The position numbers were made by a program, and so were the translations under genes. The notes beneath the pieces are model-generated. The model was not told the origin of the DNA. It did no database searches and saw nothing but the letters and a program-made list of their open reading frames with translations. This document shows, one piece after another, positions 7,320 through 50,243 of a stretch of 64,000 bases of DNA. Where the stretch lies: NCBI GenBank assembly GCA_011316305.1, contig SAUG01000064.1, positions 62,001 to 126,000 on the forward strand, in the 5' to 3' direction. The number at the start of each line of letters is the position of its first letter. Within the stretch, counting starts at the first letter, position 1. The DNA is from Rusavskia elegans. Lineage: Eukaryota; Ascomycota; Lecanoromycetes; Teloschistales; Teloschistaceae.

Positions 7320-7998
7320 CCTCAGCTCTCAGACCTGCACGCGCCAGAATTTGGGGAAGGGCTATATTTCACCAAAGCTAGTAGGTCCCGCTAGCTCTAT
7401 ATAGTTAAGGGGTAAAATTCTGGCGGTCGCAGGTCTGAGTTTAATATTCTAAAAACCAGCTAGCTTTATACTTATAATTTTACGAAAATCGTATTTCGTC
7501 GTCGCTTTAACGAGGGGTTTATCTCGAGATATCTCTTCCGAAAACTATCGTCGGGGCTAGATTTCTTAAGAATCTCGCCCCGACGGCTAGTTTTAGAAGA
7601 GAATCCTCGAGATAAACCCCTCGTAGAAGTAACGACGAAATATAACTTTCGTAAAATCTACAGATCGTAAACCCTTTAAAAGCTGTTCTTCGTCGTCCTC
7701 GAAATAAAGGGTTTATCTCGAGGATTCTCTTCTAAAACCAGCTGTCGGGGCGAGATCCTTAAGAAATCTAGCCCCGACGATAGTTTTCGGAGGAGATATC
7801 TCGAGATAAACCCCTCGTTAAAGCGACGACGAAGAATAACTTTTCGTTATCTCGACCAATATAAAGCTAGCTTAGACTAATTAAGTTAACCTTAGACTTC
7901 CTACGGAGGAGTACTAGTAGCAACGCTAGCCTTTTAGTGTATTTTTTTATCACCACTACCACAGTACTCCTCCGTAGGAGGTCTGAGGACTGAGGCAA
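7320..7998. mobile_element. Non-autonomous fold-back element, 679 bp, no coding capacity
   Basis: The ends are inverted repeats (CCTCAG, two variable bases, then CTCAGACCT), flanked by a perfect 11-bp direct repeat. Inside are three hairpin modules. Module A is 7326-7440, closed by CTCAGACCTGC against GCAGGTCTGAG. Module B, 7458-7873, is a giant palindrome centred near 7665; its outer ~73-bp arms differ at only one position, and each arm is itself an imperfect palindrome. Module C is 7891-7988, with 24-bp arms carrying two mismatches. The long duplication and extensive inverted repeats resemble Mutator-like (MULE) MITEs, which make 9-11-bp duplications. The family assignment is inference. Confidence 0.8.
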
Positions 7999-18557: not shown

Positions 18558-18755
18558 TTGCCGTAGACTCCGGAGTCAGCATGCCTGTCATGGAAGTGTC
18601 TCGGGAGTTCGAATGTAATGGACCATAGTATGTCTCACCATGGCTTGGCAGGGCATTCGATTGACGTGCCAATCGAGGTCTCGGTTGCCTAGCATGCCAG
18701 AGATAGCTCCAGAGCCGTGCGGAATTGCGGTAGAGGAGCTCCGACAATTACTCAT
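18558..18755 (-). repeat. Dead introner-like element, both splice sites mutated
   Basis: On the minus strand this 198-nt stretch is collinear with the three introns of the VWA gene (45383-48992) and has exactly the length of its second intron. It shares the start (GAGTAATTGTCGGAGCTCC), the central hairpin (CGATTGGCACGTCAATCG) and the end (GGCATGCTGACTCCG). The donor reads ATGAGT instead of GTGAGT, and the end reads GCAA instead of GCAG. Both changes are G to A. The flanking DNA has no recognisable gene. Confidence 0.75.
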
Positions 18756-19875: not shown

Positions 19876-20239
19876 GCACGATATGGTATGTTGGAATGAG
19901 GTGCAAAAGACTACCGGGAGCGGTGGTGGTGCTTTGAGTACACTCGTTAGGGTTGAACTTGTACATCTTCAGTTGGTCTCGGCTGAGCTCTTATAAGTTT
20001 TCGCGCAACTTCCACTGGGGAGGTCGCTGTGCGACGTTTTGTAACATTCATCAAACAAGAGTGGGTTTGCTTCCATATGATGGTGGTCCGGCAATCGACT
20101 GCCCTGATTGGCGGAGACGCCATCGGCGTTTTAGCGCGGCCCGCCCCGGCTCGGCGGCTGCTTCATGCTGACTCAGCGAAGGTCCATCGACGATTTCAAC
20201 CCTGCCGTGCTCGCGGCGAGCAGAAACGTGCGGACATTT

Positions 20240-20310
20240 CGACTTGGCCACTCGAAACCACGACTGCCAGCCAAACTGGATGCCCTGCCAATGCATGAGA
20301 CTACAGGCTT
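20240..20310 (+). repeat. Fragment related to the introner-like family
   Basis: The plus strand holds CCACTCGAAACCACGACTG, then GGATGCCCTGCCAATGCATG. These match the hairpin core and right flank of the introner repeats (GGCATTCGAGACCTCGATTG and GAATGCCCTGCCAAGC). No intron ends are visible, so this is a partial or old copy. Confidence 0.4.
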
Positions 20311-21424
20311 AGTGTCCGGATTTTTCTGCTCCCCGCGAGCCATGTTCTGCGACGATAACTTCGCAACGGTCAAAGCCTTTGAGAGTCAATCCACCGTCGA
20401 CGCACGCAGCCAGCTCAGAGGCTACCATGATCTCGACAGCGTTCCAATGCAGCTGTGTATGCTCCAGCTATCGGAAGCTGGCTGGAATCTCCCGTACGTA
20501 ACACCCAGGGAACTCGAAAACTTCAGCTGATAGCCTTAGACGACAACAATATCGGAACGGCCACGTCCCCCAGCCAACATTTTCCTTCCAGCGGCAAAAG
20601 AGGTGGTGCCATAATCAAGCATTGGAGCACAACGACGTGCAGTCTGTAGGGATGGGGAAGGATTCTGGTGAAGGGGTTAGAGAATGAGGATGTCCGGTTG
20701 AGACTATGGCCAGTTCCTGTCAGCGATAGACCCGAAATCCAGCAGGAGCCGGCAGAAACCTGCCGTGTTCGTTTGTCACTTTCACTTCCTCCACCCGCCA
20801 ATTCCTACACAGGCAGGGGAGTTCGTGCTACGGGACATTCAATCGTGGATACTGGGCTATTTATCACGTCCTCAACCGCGACGGTGACATAAAGAGGAAG
20901 CATCAATGTCAAGGCCGACCGTAGGCCGACTGTGTGTTCCGCCATCTAGTATCACGTCCTGAGCATCGTTGATGTCGCAAATTCCCGCATGACTTCTACT
21001 TTTAGAATCACATCAGTGCTTCGCTCACGGTACCTATCCTCAAATATACCGGATGTAAGGTCTGTCTCTTTGAGCTGCAGGTCAAACAACAATAGGGAGG
21101 GAGTGGTATGCTGTACTCTGTCGGCTATATCATCTGCCTTCACTTCCCTTGTCAACGTCTGCACCCCTGCATTCTTCACGAAGGCATGGCGGTGTGGAGC
21201 GTGACCACTACTGCAGGTCTGGTTTGCTTGCGGCTAGCTGCATCATTCATCTTTTTGTTGACAGACCTCAACTCTCACCTGTGAACACCTTACGTCTTCA
21301 AAACCAACACTTCTGTACGGCGCGAAATGGAATCTTCTGGAATTACACATCTTCCTTCAGCAGCCTCATGAGTCTCTTTTGACAAGAGCTCTCAGTCTCC
21401 ATCATAGCTCTCTAATACTTCACC
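20311..21424. other. Upstream region of the NFX1-type helicase gene
   Basis: Only short overlapping frames are visible. A C/T-rich stretch just before 21425 is consistent with a promoter and leader. No RNA gene or repeat is seen. Confidence 0.45.
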
Positions 21425-45382: not shown

Positions 45383-48300
45383 TTATCGTATACCCAGTTC
45401 ATACTCCATCTTCGCCACAATCTTATTCTTGGTCCAATCATGCACATACGCCGCACCACTCCGATCGTCCAACCCCATTCTCTCACTCGCAATCTTCAAC
45501 GCTTCCCAGAAGCTTGGCAAGAGACTGCGGACCTCATCGTCAATAGTCGCCGAGTAGATGTCCCCTCGATGGCTGGTAGCACAAAGTTCTATACGGACAT
45601 CCACGACGAACGAATCAATCGCAGAGTTGTTGTTATCCCCTTTGGCTGAACGCATAATAGCTTCCTTCTTACCGAGCGAGAGTCGCGACCAAGCTCGCGC
45701 AATACTGATATGGAGCGTGTTGTGGTAAGATGATGGTGCCTTTGGTGCAAGCGTAGGATCCGGGAGGCCTGTTTGGCTCTGAAACTTTCCCGGGATCCCT
45801 AAATAGAATTCCGTGTCAGCATGCCTGCAATACGAGTAAAAATGAGAACGACCGAGTATGTTCTATCCTGAATTGGCAGGGTATACGAGACCTCGACTGG
45901 CACCAGTCGAGATCTCGAATGCCTAGCGTACCAAGAACAACTCCAGAGTCAAGCAGGATTGGGCTTCAGGAACTCCGAAAACTACTTACCGAAAACGGCG
46001 GCGAAGTGATTAGCTCGACGTGTACGGATACCGTTGGCTGCCGCCTCGACTCCCTTCTGGAAATCATTTGGGGAGTAAAACTCGGTCCCACAGCCTGGGA
46101 AACCGCAAGACAGGACGCTGGCGCCGAAGGGGGTTGCGAATGGAGGCATTGCATATCCTGCAGTAGGTTTCGGAGTCAGCATGCCTGCAAAGCAGCTGTC
46201 TTGGGAATACAAATGAGATCGAACGACATGTGCTATCCTGTAGCTTGGCAGGGTATTCAATTGACCTGTCAATCGAGGTCTCGAATGCCCAACCTCGCAG
46301 GGATAGCTTCAATGTCAAGCGGGGTTGGGGTAAAGGAGCTCCAAAACCTACTCACCTAGATGTATGTCTTGCATATGGGCTGTCAAGCTGTCCCTCAGTC
46401 GGGCCTTGTCACAGAAGATTGACAATAGGACCCTCTTCACCTCGTTTTGTGGGAGATGGGGAGCGGCTGGGTCCAAGACTGCGGGTGCGAGGGGCTCTCG
46501 AGATGCGATAGTGGCGAAGAAAGTCTTTGGAGTGGTATGGCCCTTTTGTGTATACAGGACCCAGAATGTGACTAATTGGAGCCGAGATATTACCGCTTCA
46601 CGAGCCTCGGTGTCAAACAGTGCGAGGAAACGTGTAACATCCTGCCATGAGCCAAGGGCACCTTCGAGCGGCATCCAGCATACATCGGACGGAATAAGCG
46701 ATTCAACACCCAAGTCCCGTGGAATGCCAGGGGCATTGAATTCTCTGTATATCAGATGGAGGAAGCGATACGTCCAGAGCTTATCGCCATCCTTCTCGCG
46801 GAGAAACTCACTCATCATTACCGTGACTATTTGGTGAATTAGCTTTGCTGCCCTCACGGCCTGGGTCCGCTCTGCATCGATGGGCAATCGTAGGAGCTCG
46901 GCCCATCGCAAGATTTGACTGAAGCCAGCTAAAGGATATTGAATAATCCAACTATCCAAACCTGCAGTCTCGTATTCCTTGAGCGCCCAGAGCAGAGCCT
47001 TGGGATATAGGACCCATTTTCCATTCTCGCCAAAGTTCTCCCTACAAAAACTCCTCTCGAGTATGTTGATTAGCATCCATTCGAAGGCTTCACGACGGGT
47101 TTGTACTTCCGCATCTTCGGTTTGATCACAAGAGCACCAATCCTTTGTTTCAAGCGTACGATCGAGGATAGTAGCGAACAGCTGCGCAATACCTGATGCG
47201 CCAGTCGCGAGGCCAGCGGTAACAGCCAGTGTGAGTTGGTGGTCGATATACTTCTTGTTAGCACCCTTGTACTCGACTGTTGGGAGGGTGGCAACAATGT
47301 GCTCTTGGAAGATCGATACCCTCAGCGCCTGGGCACACTGGAAGCAAATACACTGAGCTGAGACCATCTCTTTGTTCTGCTTTGCTTGTGCCGCAGCCAA
47401 GGGAAAGTTCAAGGCGAAGTCGGTGGTATTCTCCTCTATCGTGTCAAGATGTTTCAAGACAATGGACATGATTTGCTCGTCTTCGCAACAAATCGAGCAG
47501 GCACCGCGGAAAGCCTCGATGTCATTCGATAGGTCGAGTGCCGCAACATCGATTTTACCATCCTGAGCAGAGACAGTGGAAGCTCGCATAGCCCGGTTGC
47601 TCTTGCGATTTAATATGTCTGCGGTGTATGAAGACTTCTCAAAAGCGGCTATGAATTGGAGAGCCTGGTTGATGGATCTGTTGAGCTCCGTTGCCTCCTG
47701 CTGCTCTTCCGAGGGTTCGTTGCGCAGCTTGAGGTACTTCTCCCTATTGGCTGCATGCGCTTGTCGGAGCTGCTCTCTTAGCTTGTTTTTCTCATCTTCC
47801 AGAACGGTCTTGGATTGCAATTTCTCCATGATCTTTCCAGCTCCATGAATGTCTTCAAGTCGGACCACAACGTCTTGCTTCTTGTGCCGAATGAGCAAGT
47901 CACGCAATGCTCCAAGCCGCCCACGAGTCTTGCAAAGGAGGGCCAATTGAGTGAAGGCTTCTTCTGCCAAGATGTTGCGGAGGTCCGAAGTTTTGATCTG
48001 CGCCTGTTGGAGCAGCAAGGGAACATTGACGAGGGCTTTGCCGGTAGCACTGTCCCACTCGGTCCCCAGGGAGACTGCTCGCGTATTCGGGCGTGTAGCG
48101 CTTGGAGTAACGACAATCTCCAGCTCTTTACACCGACTGTTAAACCTGGCCTCGTTCGCAAAACAAGCCAGAGATGACCAGCCCGAGGTGTAGTCAGAAT
48201 CTTCATTCCTCAATCTTGCGAACGCTCCTTTGGCGTCAATAACAAACAGCTCGCCACTGGATGCAATCTTGAACAAGATCAACGCCTCATGAGCGGCGGC

Positions 48301-48992
48301 GAAGAAGGTTACGCCAACAGATATATTGGCCTGGGCTGGTCCCCCGTAGCGTTCACCAGTGATAACGAGGATAATAGGGGTCTTCAAAATATTAAGTTCT
48401 TCCGCGAGGTTGCCCAATTCATCCACCTGGGATGAGTCAATTATACCATCGGTCAACAAGACCCACACTTCCGAGTCTTGGATGAGATCGACAGCGTGGG
48501 GATGCTCCAAGATAGAGGACGGACAAGTACCACCACTACCGTAAAAATAGCGGGACCCGACAGTGTCAAGTTGTCGAGGGTCTTGACAACTGGACTCCCA
48601 AAGCACGACATGATCATCAGTGTTGGCATGCAGTGTCCTTACAGTCTGCTCCTGGGCGCGCATAATTGATCCTATGGTACTACCTGAAGCATCGACGGCG
48701 AAGAACTTCTTGGCGGTATCAAAGGAGACCTTCGTGCTGCTGCAGACGTCGGAGTCAGCATATGTAACACTAGACCAATACAATTGTCTCGGAGTACAAA
48801 TCGGAGTGAGATGATAGTTTATTTAAACATGGCGGGGCATCCAAGACCTAGACTGATACCAATCGAGGTATCGAATGCCTGGCTTGCCAGGGAAAGCGCC
48901 AAAGTCAGGCGAGAATGGAAGACAACAGCTCCGAGAATTACTGACCCAGTTGGGAGTTCTGCCTCCTTCTCTTGCCATGTTGGAAGCCCCAT
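45383..48992 (-). CDS. VWA-domain protein, 1004 aa, with three introner-like introns
   Basis: Exons: 48946-48992 (MGLPTWQEKEAELPTG), 46356-48739, 45990-46157 and 45383-45798; phases 2, 1 and 1 all close. The VWA domain is at the N-terminus: MIDAS motif D-x-S-x-S in FFAVDASGSTIGSIMR, the Thr in GSGGTCPSS, and the Asp in VWVLLTDGIIDS. A coiled coil follows (about 320-390; DEKNKLREQLRQAHAANREK). Next is a Cys-rich segment that could be a small zinc site (GACSICCEDEQ ... CICFQC), then a long helical region. The last two exons add a Cys pair (SCGFPGCGTEFYSPNDF) and a tail ending YELGIR. The fold suggests a metal-dependent adhesion/scaffold role inside the cell, as no signal peptide is present; function unknown. 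All three introns (191-206 nt) are copies of one repeat. Confidence 0.88.
45799..45989 (-). repeat. Introner-like element, intron 3 of the VWA gene (191 nt)
   Basis: It runs from GTAAGT to ATTTAG on the coding strand, with branch GCATGCTGAC. It contains the strongest version of the family hairpin (CTCGACTGG-TG-CCAGTCGAG) between GGCATTCGAGAT and TACCCTGCCAA. Confidence 0.88.
46158..46355 (-). repeat. Introner-like element, intron 2 of the VWA gene (198 nt)
   Basis: It runs from GTGAGT to CTACTGCAG on the coding strand, with branch GCATGCTGAC. The hairpin core ATTGAC/GTCAAT and the flanks CATTCGAGACCTCG and ACCCTGCCAAGC match the other copies. Confidence 0.88.
48740..48945 (-). repeat. Introner-like element, intron 1 of the VWA gene (206 nt)
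   Basis: It runs from GTCAGT to TCTGCAG on the coding strand, with branch ATGCTGAC. It shares with the other copies the start (AATTCTCGGAGCT), the hairpin core (CCTCGATTG / CAGTCTAGG between GGCAT and ATGCC) and the end GCTGACTCCG. Confidence 0.85.
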
Positions 48993-49394
48993 ATTGTCGA
49001 TTTTCTCTGGATTTGCGGGTCAAGGGACACAGAGACACAAAGCTAATCGATGTTTAACAACGTGCAAAGACGCTTGACGATGTTTGTCAATGTATAGAAT
49101 AGCAGGACTTTGTTGCAAAAATAGAAGTAAGGTGTCTTTTTATCTTGCGGTGAGTCGGATGGGGGGTGAGTCAGTTTCAGCAGTAGTGAGTCACTCCACA
49201 AGATTCGAGGTGGAAGGAGCGACGATGGGCAGCTGAAGAGCAACCGATGGGACGCCTTCTCTTTGTACGACTGCACCATGGTCGAAAAGCCGTTTGACTA
49301 TATGGGAGGGCTGGCTTGCCGTTAAGCTGGGGGCGGAGCATCGTGGTAGCCAAGCTCGCACATTCTCAGCCGCTGTTCCTCTGAGTTGGCGGAG

Positions 49395-49465
49395 TGGGCA
49401 TCTGATACCTCGACTGCCAGCCAAGTCCAAATCGGACGCCTTACCAGTGCACCTCCATGAACCAG
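49395..49465 (+). repeat. Fragment related to the introner-like family
   Basis: GGGCATCTGATACCTCGACTG followed by GGACGCCTTACCAGTGCA resembles the hairpin core and right flank of the introner family, and closely resembles the fragment at 20240-20310 (shared ACTGCCAGCCAA). No splice ends are visible. Confidence 0.4.
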
Positions 49466-49669: not shown

Positions 49670-50243
49670 GGCACGGGATAGCTCCATACTACGCGCTGAA
49701 CAAAATCTATACTATACTTTAGGGTTAGAGCTAACTATATATATTATAAATAACCTTTAATAATCTATTTTAACTATATACTAAAAACTAATTCTATAAA
49801 TTCTAAAGCTAAAACTCTTAATTCCTTTATATATATACCTATACTATTAAAAATAAGAAAATCTAGTATATACGACTAGGATTAGATACGTAGTACTTTC
49901 TAAATCTCGTTTATCTCGATCGTAGCTTACTACTAAAAGTTAGTAGGAAGGCCTTCTAGATAGGGCTAGCCCTATAAAAACTCGATATTTTTAACTCCGT
50001 ACTATATAACCCCGTCCATCCCCTCCCTAAATCTGCCTGCCTATTTTATACGTAACTTCTGCTCTTCTAGCGCCTGTTAAGATTTTTAGGAAATTTTTAC
50101 GAAGAAGCTAAATTTATAGACGGAAGTAGTATAATTATAGTAGCAGGTAGCTAAAGGTCGGGTATAGGACGCGAGATACTAGGGACGTTTTACGCGTATG
50201 GTATAGATTTTGTTCAGCGCGTGGTATGGAGCTATCCCGTGCC
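49670..50243. mobile_element. Non-autonomous TIR element, 574 bp, AT-rich
   Basis: The terminal inverted repeats are 48 bp (49670-49717 and 50196-50243, beginning GGCACGGGATAGCTCC) and differ at two positions, both C/T. The element is flanked by the 8-bp direct repeat AACCTTTA. The interior is strongly AT-rich, with no reading frame. The duplication size fits hAT-like or Mutator-like MITEs; the terminal bases do not decide between them. The C/T differences and AT bias are what repeat-induced point mutation would leave. Confidence 0.85.

Follow-up and report, generated by a model that had tools for sequence, protein, structure and literature searches.

Why should all three introns of one fungal gene look like copies of a single sequence, and how could such copies have spread? 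The gene lies on the minus strand of a 64,000-nt stretch of the lichen-forming ascomycete Rusavskia elegans (assembly GCA_011316305.1, contig SAUG01000064.1, positions 62,001 to 126,000); this whole stretch is the window, and its own numbering is used here. An initial annotation, made from the letters alone, had read the introns as copies of a mobile intron family of the kind called introner-like elements (ILEs), which were reportedly described in Dothideomycetes in 2012. The three introns and their relatives elsewhere in the genome are almost certainly such a family. The best overall explanation, at a probability of about 0.85, is an ILE family that may be copied by an RNA route and probably has a core derived from a miniature inverted-repeat transposable element (MITE). 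The host gene and its introns comprise the following features:

45383..48992, minus strand: host gene, four exons, 1003-1004 aa, conserved across ascomycetes
48946-48992, 46356-48739 (or -48736), 45990-46157 and 45383-45798, minus strand: exons of the host gene
48737..48945, minus strand: intron 1, ILE copy, 209 nt, with a tandem CAGCAG acceptor
46158..46355, minus strand: intron 2, ILE copy, 198 nt, short-hairpin form
45799..45989, minus strand: intron 3, ILE copy, 191 nt, long-hairpin form
48750..48763, minus strand: branch-site block of intron 1, ATATGCTGACTCCG
46171..46184, minus strand: branch-site block of intron 2, GCATGCTGACTCCG
45811..45824, minus strand: branch-site block of intron 3, GCATGCTGACACGG

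As the initial annotation stated, the introns are full-length copies of one sequence of about 200 nt. They align with one another from end to end, each starting with GT and ending with AG; identity is 69% over 181 nt between introns 2 and 3 and 64% between introns 1 and 2, the two pairs measured. The hairpin of the aligned copies is short in intron 2 and long in introns 1 and 3. The shared block GCATGCTGACTCCG includes CTGAC, which we take to be a fungal-type branch site, about 20 nt upstream of the acceptor. In 45700-49050, no known RNA family reached its gathering score; one match below it had E=0.52.

Once the three repeats are taken out, the frame that opens with the ATG at 48992 is 1004 aa long, which bears out the claim that the exon phases close on removal of the repeats. 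Close orthologs align through junctions 2 (DIHLG/YAMPPF) and 3 (FG/IPG) with no residues gained or lost; introns 2 and 3 are therefore seamless at the protein level. Their coordinates stand as first annotated. The acceptor boundary of intron 1 had been placed at 48740; within the tandem CAGCAG, 48737 is favoured because the family profile match extends to that position and because orthologs P0002 and P0003 are shorter by one residue at junction 1. The reading frame is kept with either boundary.

A protein search returned 213 homologs of the host gene. The best match to exon 2 is from Xanthoria sp. 1 TBL-2021 (96%), with other Teloschistaceae lower; the context is thus Lecanoromycetes and not the Dothideomycetes that the initial annotation had suggested; the kind of element it named is correct. 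A Pfam scan of the window gene product matched no family.

The 44.16-Mb assembly (217 contigs) was searched with DNA queries and sequence patterns, so that all copy numbers are lower bounds. Merged over searches, the ILE family occupies at least 92 distinct places, a count that takes in partial copies and places recognised by a single end; a 61-nt query from the ILE 3' end adds a few more. Intron 3 as DNA query finds at least 34 places including itself and intron 2 (best other E=1e-22), and six further rows are reverse-strand hairpin matches at the same 34 places. With the ILE consensus as query, the best 40 of 94 candidates were scored; 37 of these 40 match over 90% or more of the query, with identities of 76-90%. 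The 3' 27-mer, when three mismatches at most are allowed, has 47 matches against 0 control matches, and the 5' 21-mer 45 against 4.

Boundary, frame, MITE-profile and identity tests used 43 full-length copies taken from 62 merged rows (one copy being split in two rows). The copies run from model position <=3 to >=205 and score above 95; the 19 rows dropped include intron 3 (model end 203). GT is found at the start of 39 copies, AG at the end of 40, and both in 38. By eye, conservation spans GTNAGTAGTTTTCGGAG to CTGACTCCGAAATCTACTGCAG, with unrelated exon sequence on either side. The ILE carries its own splice signals, with GTNAGT as donor, CTGAC as branch site and CTACTGCAG as acceptor. Among the 38 GT..AG copies, 23 have G at exon position -1 and 25 have a purine at position +1; this bias is a weak site preference. 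Host genes are unrelated and encode varied proteins and domains, and the copies lie in sense orientation, in line with the mobile family first proposed.

The coding context of the copies bears on whether they behave as introns. With fixed repeat boundaries, the two-sided open length was compared between exact removal of the repeat and removal of 1 or 2 extra bases. Exact removal gave a longer frame than both shifts in 27 of the 38 GT..AG copies (chance 1/3, p=2e-6), and sense exceeded antisense (p=2e-5). Median open lengths were 170 nt for exact removal, 112 and 98 nt with 1 and 2 extra bases removed, 84 nt without splicing and 60 nt in antisense. Intron phases are split as 9, 11 and 5 among the 25 copies with coding support.

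Besides the window gene, 14 of 30 host proteins were chosen by eye as likely to bear domains and were compared with Pfam; 13 junctions could be tested, as the piece from host gene L016 did not include its junction. Domains above cut-off span six of the 13: a 2OG-Fe(II) oxygenase (L046), amino-acid permeases (L019, L029), helicase C (L020), MFS (L015) and a protein kinase (L009). Pfam matches cross the junctions of L032 and L045 below cut-off; L043, L003, L040, L081 and L058 have no Pfam match spanning the junction. On frame closure, orthologs and domains taken together, ILE copies are presumably spliced as spliceosomal introns.

It can be given almost no credence that the repeats are ordinary dispersed transposons with GT/AG ends by accident and genic positions by chance. 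A few full copies without splice ends or coding flanks, such as 18559-18755 and C155:216179, would suit that explanation, as would a related MITE in the same genome. It is opposed by the retention of both splice ends in 38 of 43 full copies, by the closure of frames in sense and not antisense, by Pfam domains that cross junctions and by the five invariant columns among 31 aligned copies, three of which are in the branch site. The copy within the window looks decayed:

18559..18755, minus strand: fourth ILE copy of the window, full length; ATGAGT and ..GGCAA replace GT..AG; no clear coding flanks

Near-identical copies had been expected. The 43 full copies have a median pairwise identity of 72% and a best pair of 92%; in the absence of near-identical copies, the claim that three introns in one gene reflect recent gain is unsupported. 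Repeat-induced point mutation was considered as the cause of divergence and rejected: C-to-T frequencies are 0.144 at CpA, 0.146 at CpG (strands pooled), 0.085 at CpC and 0.072 at CpT, with no strong CpA bias.

ILE places are clustered. Sixteen pairs lie within 5 kb of each other against 0.95 expected at random, 14 of them on the same strand; two of the 16 involve the copy at C51:220798, which was found only through its fetched flank. This pattern is what would be expected if the three introns had arisen by duplication within the gene, through exon-intron duplication or gene conversion between introns. Such an origin is nonetheless very improbable: same-strand neighbours in the tree set show no close relationship (they rank 32nd and 41st of 42 in similarity; a third pair, on opposite strands, ranks 29th), intron 2 has the short hairpin while introns 1 and 3 have the long one, and the repeat scan lists no repeated exon sequence around the three introns. 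Intron 1 is only rank 41 of 42 among the relatives of intron 2 (intron 3 is outside that set); since these two are not sister copies, separate insertions are likelier than local duplication. In several genes, ILEs were apparently inserted more than once and independently. At C187:53335-58205, three ILE ends lie within 0.9 kb and another copy lies 4 kb further on, all on one strand; this is probably a gene with several ILEs.

Comparison with other species bears on the age of individual insertions. Four database proteins (P0004, P0005, P0121 and P0123) seem to be gene calls made without splicing, so that introns are exposed in the protein. P0004 (86% identical) reads beyond GALGSWQ into 28 aa, 17 of which equal the best-matching of the 43 ILE copies translated from GT; the mean over the 43 copies is 9.6 identities. 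The alignment score of this tail with the ILE is 67, and the maximum of 400 shuffles is 43. The site is at codon ~716, where the window gene has no intron. Read by hand, P0005 (85%) ends in a frame-shifted reading of ...GGCTCATGGCAG followed by GTAA, and it seems to have the same intron as P0004. Its start, MYADFDLFR, resembles the translated 3' end of intron 1; P0005 seems to have intron 1 as well, and this intron may therefore be older.

The protein P0002 (82%) continues across junctions 1 and 2; if it is an unspliced gene call, introns 1 and 2 are absent from it. Together with the P0004 site that is empty in the window gene, this gives the difference in intron presence between orthologues that the initial annotation had proposed to look for. 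In host gene L016, P0121 (91%) and P0123 (94%) have the starts MLTLEAAAGRLFAEL and MLTPIFTAGRLFAEL, which resemble MLTPESTAGRLFAEL, the 3' end of the local ILE, and the insertion is probably common to close relatives. On these protein alignments, ILE insertions are both shared and lineage-specific among species, and we infer intron gain, not loss, behind the differences. The P0004 tail as query returned only P0004 among 17 candidates, so that no further species with ILE read-through was found there. A 63-aa insert in P0028 was considered as a read-through ILE and not counted, as its 5' end is unlike an ILE.

The ends of the element bear on its route of insertion. The ILE consensus contains 14-nt near-terminal inverted repeats, AGTAGTTTTCGGAG and AGTAGATTTCGGAG, with 13 of 14 positions matching; AGTAGTTTTCGGAG lies 3 nt from the donor end and the reversed AGTAGATTTCGGAG 4 nt from the acceptor end. 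The end-to-end inverted alignment scores 27 against 13.9 (sd 2.8) in shuffles (p=0.0015). In single copies the arms form on average 10.8 of 14 pairs, G-T counted; pairing does not correlate with copy divergence (rho -0.08). The consensus folds as one closed structure (-65 kcal/mol). No target-site duplication (TSD) was found around ILEs: the agreement of flanking 4-, 5- and 8-mers does not exceed that of permuted pairs, and among 363 shift/length combinations the largest excess (z=2.6) is at chance level.

A second repeat family shares part of the ILE. It was first seen through motif matches outside ILEs and through a weak ILE-profile match in the window (E=2.4e-4). The window contains the following members or related segments:

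20210..20339, plus strand: complete MITE, 130 nt; ends CTCGCGGCGAGCAGAA and TTCTGCTCCCCGCGAG; interior related to the ILE core
46239..46293, minus strand: core of intron 2, homolog of the MITE interior (matched in the window by the MITE profile at E=1.3e-7)
45856..45935, minus strand: core of intron 3, homolog of the MITE interior (MITE profile E=4e-6 in the window)
49380..49451, plus strand: isolated core module lacking MITE ends, ~0.4 kb upstream of the host gene (matched by the MITE profile at E=5.8e-11)

The element at 20210-20339 is a genuine MITE, having both terminal inverted repeats (TIRs) and a TSD. Its end pattern has 139 matches in the genome against 0 for controls, and the consensus ends of seven copies are alike at 24 of 29 nt. 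In nine copies tested, the 5-bp duplications have a mean identity of 0.91 against 0.41 when permuted, with none of 2000 permutations as high; a tenth copy outside the test, L086, shows no 5-bp duplication by eye. Nine measured copies are 128-154 nt long. With the window MITE as query, the best 40 of 116 candidates were scored. The MITE profile was built from seven copies, six of them found with the window MITE as query and not by their likeness to ILEs.

On the sense strand, this profile matches 31 of the 43 ILE copies at E<=10 and 12 at E<=0.001 (88-Mb search). Homology joins approximately positions 34-100 of the MITE to positions 55-125 of the ILE, a central module of ~65 nt. The two cores align with a score of 62 against 15.2 (sd 3.2) when shuffled, with none of 2000 shuffles as high; the segment to the right of the hairpin alone scores 18 against 8.3 (p=0.0025). 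In the window, the profile also matches the core of the 18559 copy (E<=0.001); intron 1 has no match at that threshold. Of 20 hairpin-motif stretches, it matches 15, three of them at full length, and misses five. Because homology is confined to the core, the addition of splice sites to a MITE would not by itself account for the ILE.

Three further observations concern the MITE family. Locus L110 (C113:84510-84810) has the 3' part of an ILE (model 121-207) that lacks the core; just upstream lies a complete MITE, oppositely oriented. Several MITE copies repeat the core in one element; at C23:139136-139362, for example, there are matches to query positions 50-145, 50-90 and 15-81. At C145:792810-793657, two inverted MITE-type ends are 848 nt apart, which exceeds the length of the measured copies and is possibly a fuller element.

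The inverted ends and MITE-like core keep a DNA route in play. The ILE could be a non-autonomous DNA transposon with near-terminal repeats recognised by a transposase, and the MITE a sibling that this enzyme, or one related to it, also moves; this is unlikely, though far from negligible. According to the available part of PMC9860276, most introner families outside the ascomycetes show marks of DNA transposons, and one choanoflagellate-type family is reported to have TIRs but no TSDs. Against this origin, ILE copies lack TSDs, orthologs join without gaps where an ILE is inserted, and ILE ends are unlike MITE ends (p=0.27, 0.13). Pattern searches, with no dedicated search, identified no larger element with ILE ends; for the 61-nt 3' query, the best 40 of 49 candidates were scored, most fell at known ILE places, and among the new ones the flanks of L103 and L110 were read.

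An intron-RNA route is moderately favoured, as it fits the seamless insertion, the presence of both splice sites on the element, the lack of duplication and the sense placement. A complete intron with its own splice signals would be removable wherever it is inserted in sense orientation in a gene. New copies would be made from excised intron RNA, either by reverse splicing into a transcript or by RNA capture at a DNA break, followed by copying into DNA. The near-terminal repeats could close the ILE RNA as one folded unit. The central module would come from the MITE family, through insertion of a MITE or a relative in an ancestral intron; transfer from the abundant MITE to the ILE is the simplest and the somewhat more probable direction. 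A bolder reading, rather less likely than not, would make this ascomycete introner family a mosaic in which canonical intron ends with near-terminal inverted repeats surround a module taken from a resident MITE.

Several results weigh against parts of this explanation. Five of the 43 full copies lack GT or AG, and 13 of the 38 GT..AG copies fail the frame test. Some of these 13 may be outside coding sequence; the failures also include L046, with a Pfam domain across its junction, and window introns 1 and 2, so that the test is conservative. The copies are old, and a current burst is not supported. The near-terminal arms pair equally well within and between copies (10.81 vs 10.87 of 14), with no co-variation. 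Applied to an alignment of 31 copies, RNAalifold gave no consensus base pair; against base-shuffled versions, folding is better by more than 2 sd in 17 of 43 copies (z has a mean of -2.1 and a median of -1.6). A conserved ILE RNA structure is therefore weakly supported by these predictions. For the MITE relationship, the 5' flank is at shuffle level (p=0.77) and the 3' flank is marginal as a whole (p=0.05; 0.42 for the first 60 nt). Searching in the other direction, with the ILE profile against MITEs, gives a weaker result: five of seven match at E<=10, with the window copy at E=1.3 (88-Mb).

Two other inverted repeats were seen in the window. One at 49670-50243, just upstream of the host gene, has 48-nt arms that are 96% complementary and 478 nt apart, and is a possible non-autonomous DNA transposon. 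The other, at 7477-7844, contains large inverted repeats nested in one another (one with 125-nt arms at 97% complementarity, besides 87-nt and 79-nt arm pairs) and looks like a palindromic repeat element.

Transposon-type introners of algae were reportedly described by Huff et al. in 2016. Compared with algal and protist introners of this type, as presented in the available part of PMC9860276, the lichen ILE is similar in its inverted repeats near both ends and its link to DNA transposons; it differs in having no TSD and no splice site supplied by the target. According to the broad survey in the same source, ascomycete introner families lack both TIRs and TSDs. In relation to the local MITE family, the ILE has a homologous core and lacks the MITE ends and 5-bp duplications.

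The available part of PMC4457414 reports Dothideomycete genes with two gained ILEs, and some families that are diverged and seemingly inactive. Compared by description only, the lichen family resembles these in having many similar full-length introns in unrelated genes, and differs in its Lecanoromycetes host, near-terminal inverted repeats and MITE-shared core. Near-identical copies occur in some Dothideomycete families; there are none among the 43 lichen copies.

Sister stwintrons and derived introns of Hypoxylaceae and Xylariaceae (Xylariales) have near-terminal inverted repeats (NTIRE-10) and no duplications, as described in the available part of PMC12403724. By description only, these are like the lichen ILEs in being seamless and without TSD, with short, RNA-pairable inverted repeats no more than 5 nt away from the ends of the intron. 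Theirs are twin (nested) introns and introns derived from them, whereas lichen ILEs are single canonical introns; the lichen arms are 14 nt long with one mismatch. Seamless insertion without TSD, near-terminal repeats and a MITE-like core are new features beyond the initial annotation.

The origin of spliceosomal introns is a long-standing question, in which ascomycete introners are an outlier with an unexplained mechanism. A literature search, with supplements outside its scope, found no report of introners in Lecanoromycetes or lichens, although the survey behind PMC9860276 could include some. The R. elegans family extends ascomycete introners to a lichen-forming fungus. An introner and a true MITE that share a module within one genome allow a direct comparison of origin and mobility. 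If the mosaic were true, ascomycete introners, described as lacking transposon marks, would be tied to DNA transposons, and the module would possibly be a mobilising signal. The MITE-related core hints at where such introns come from.

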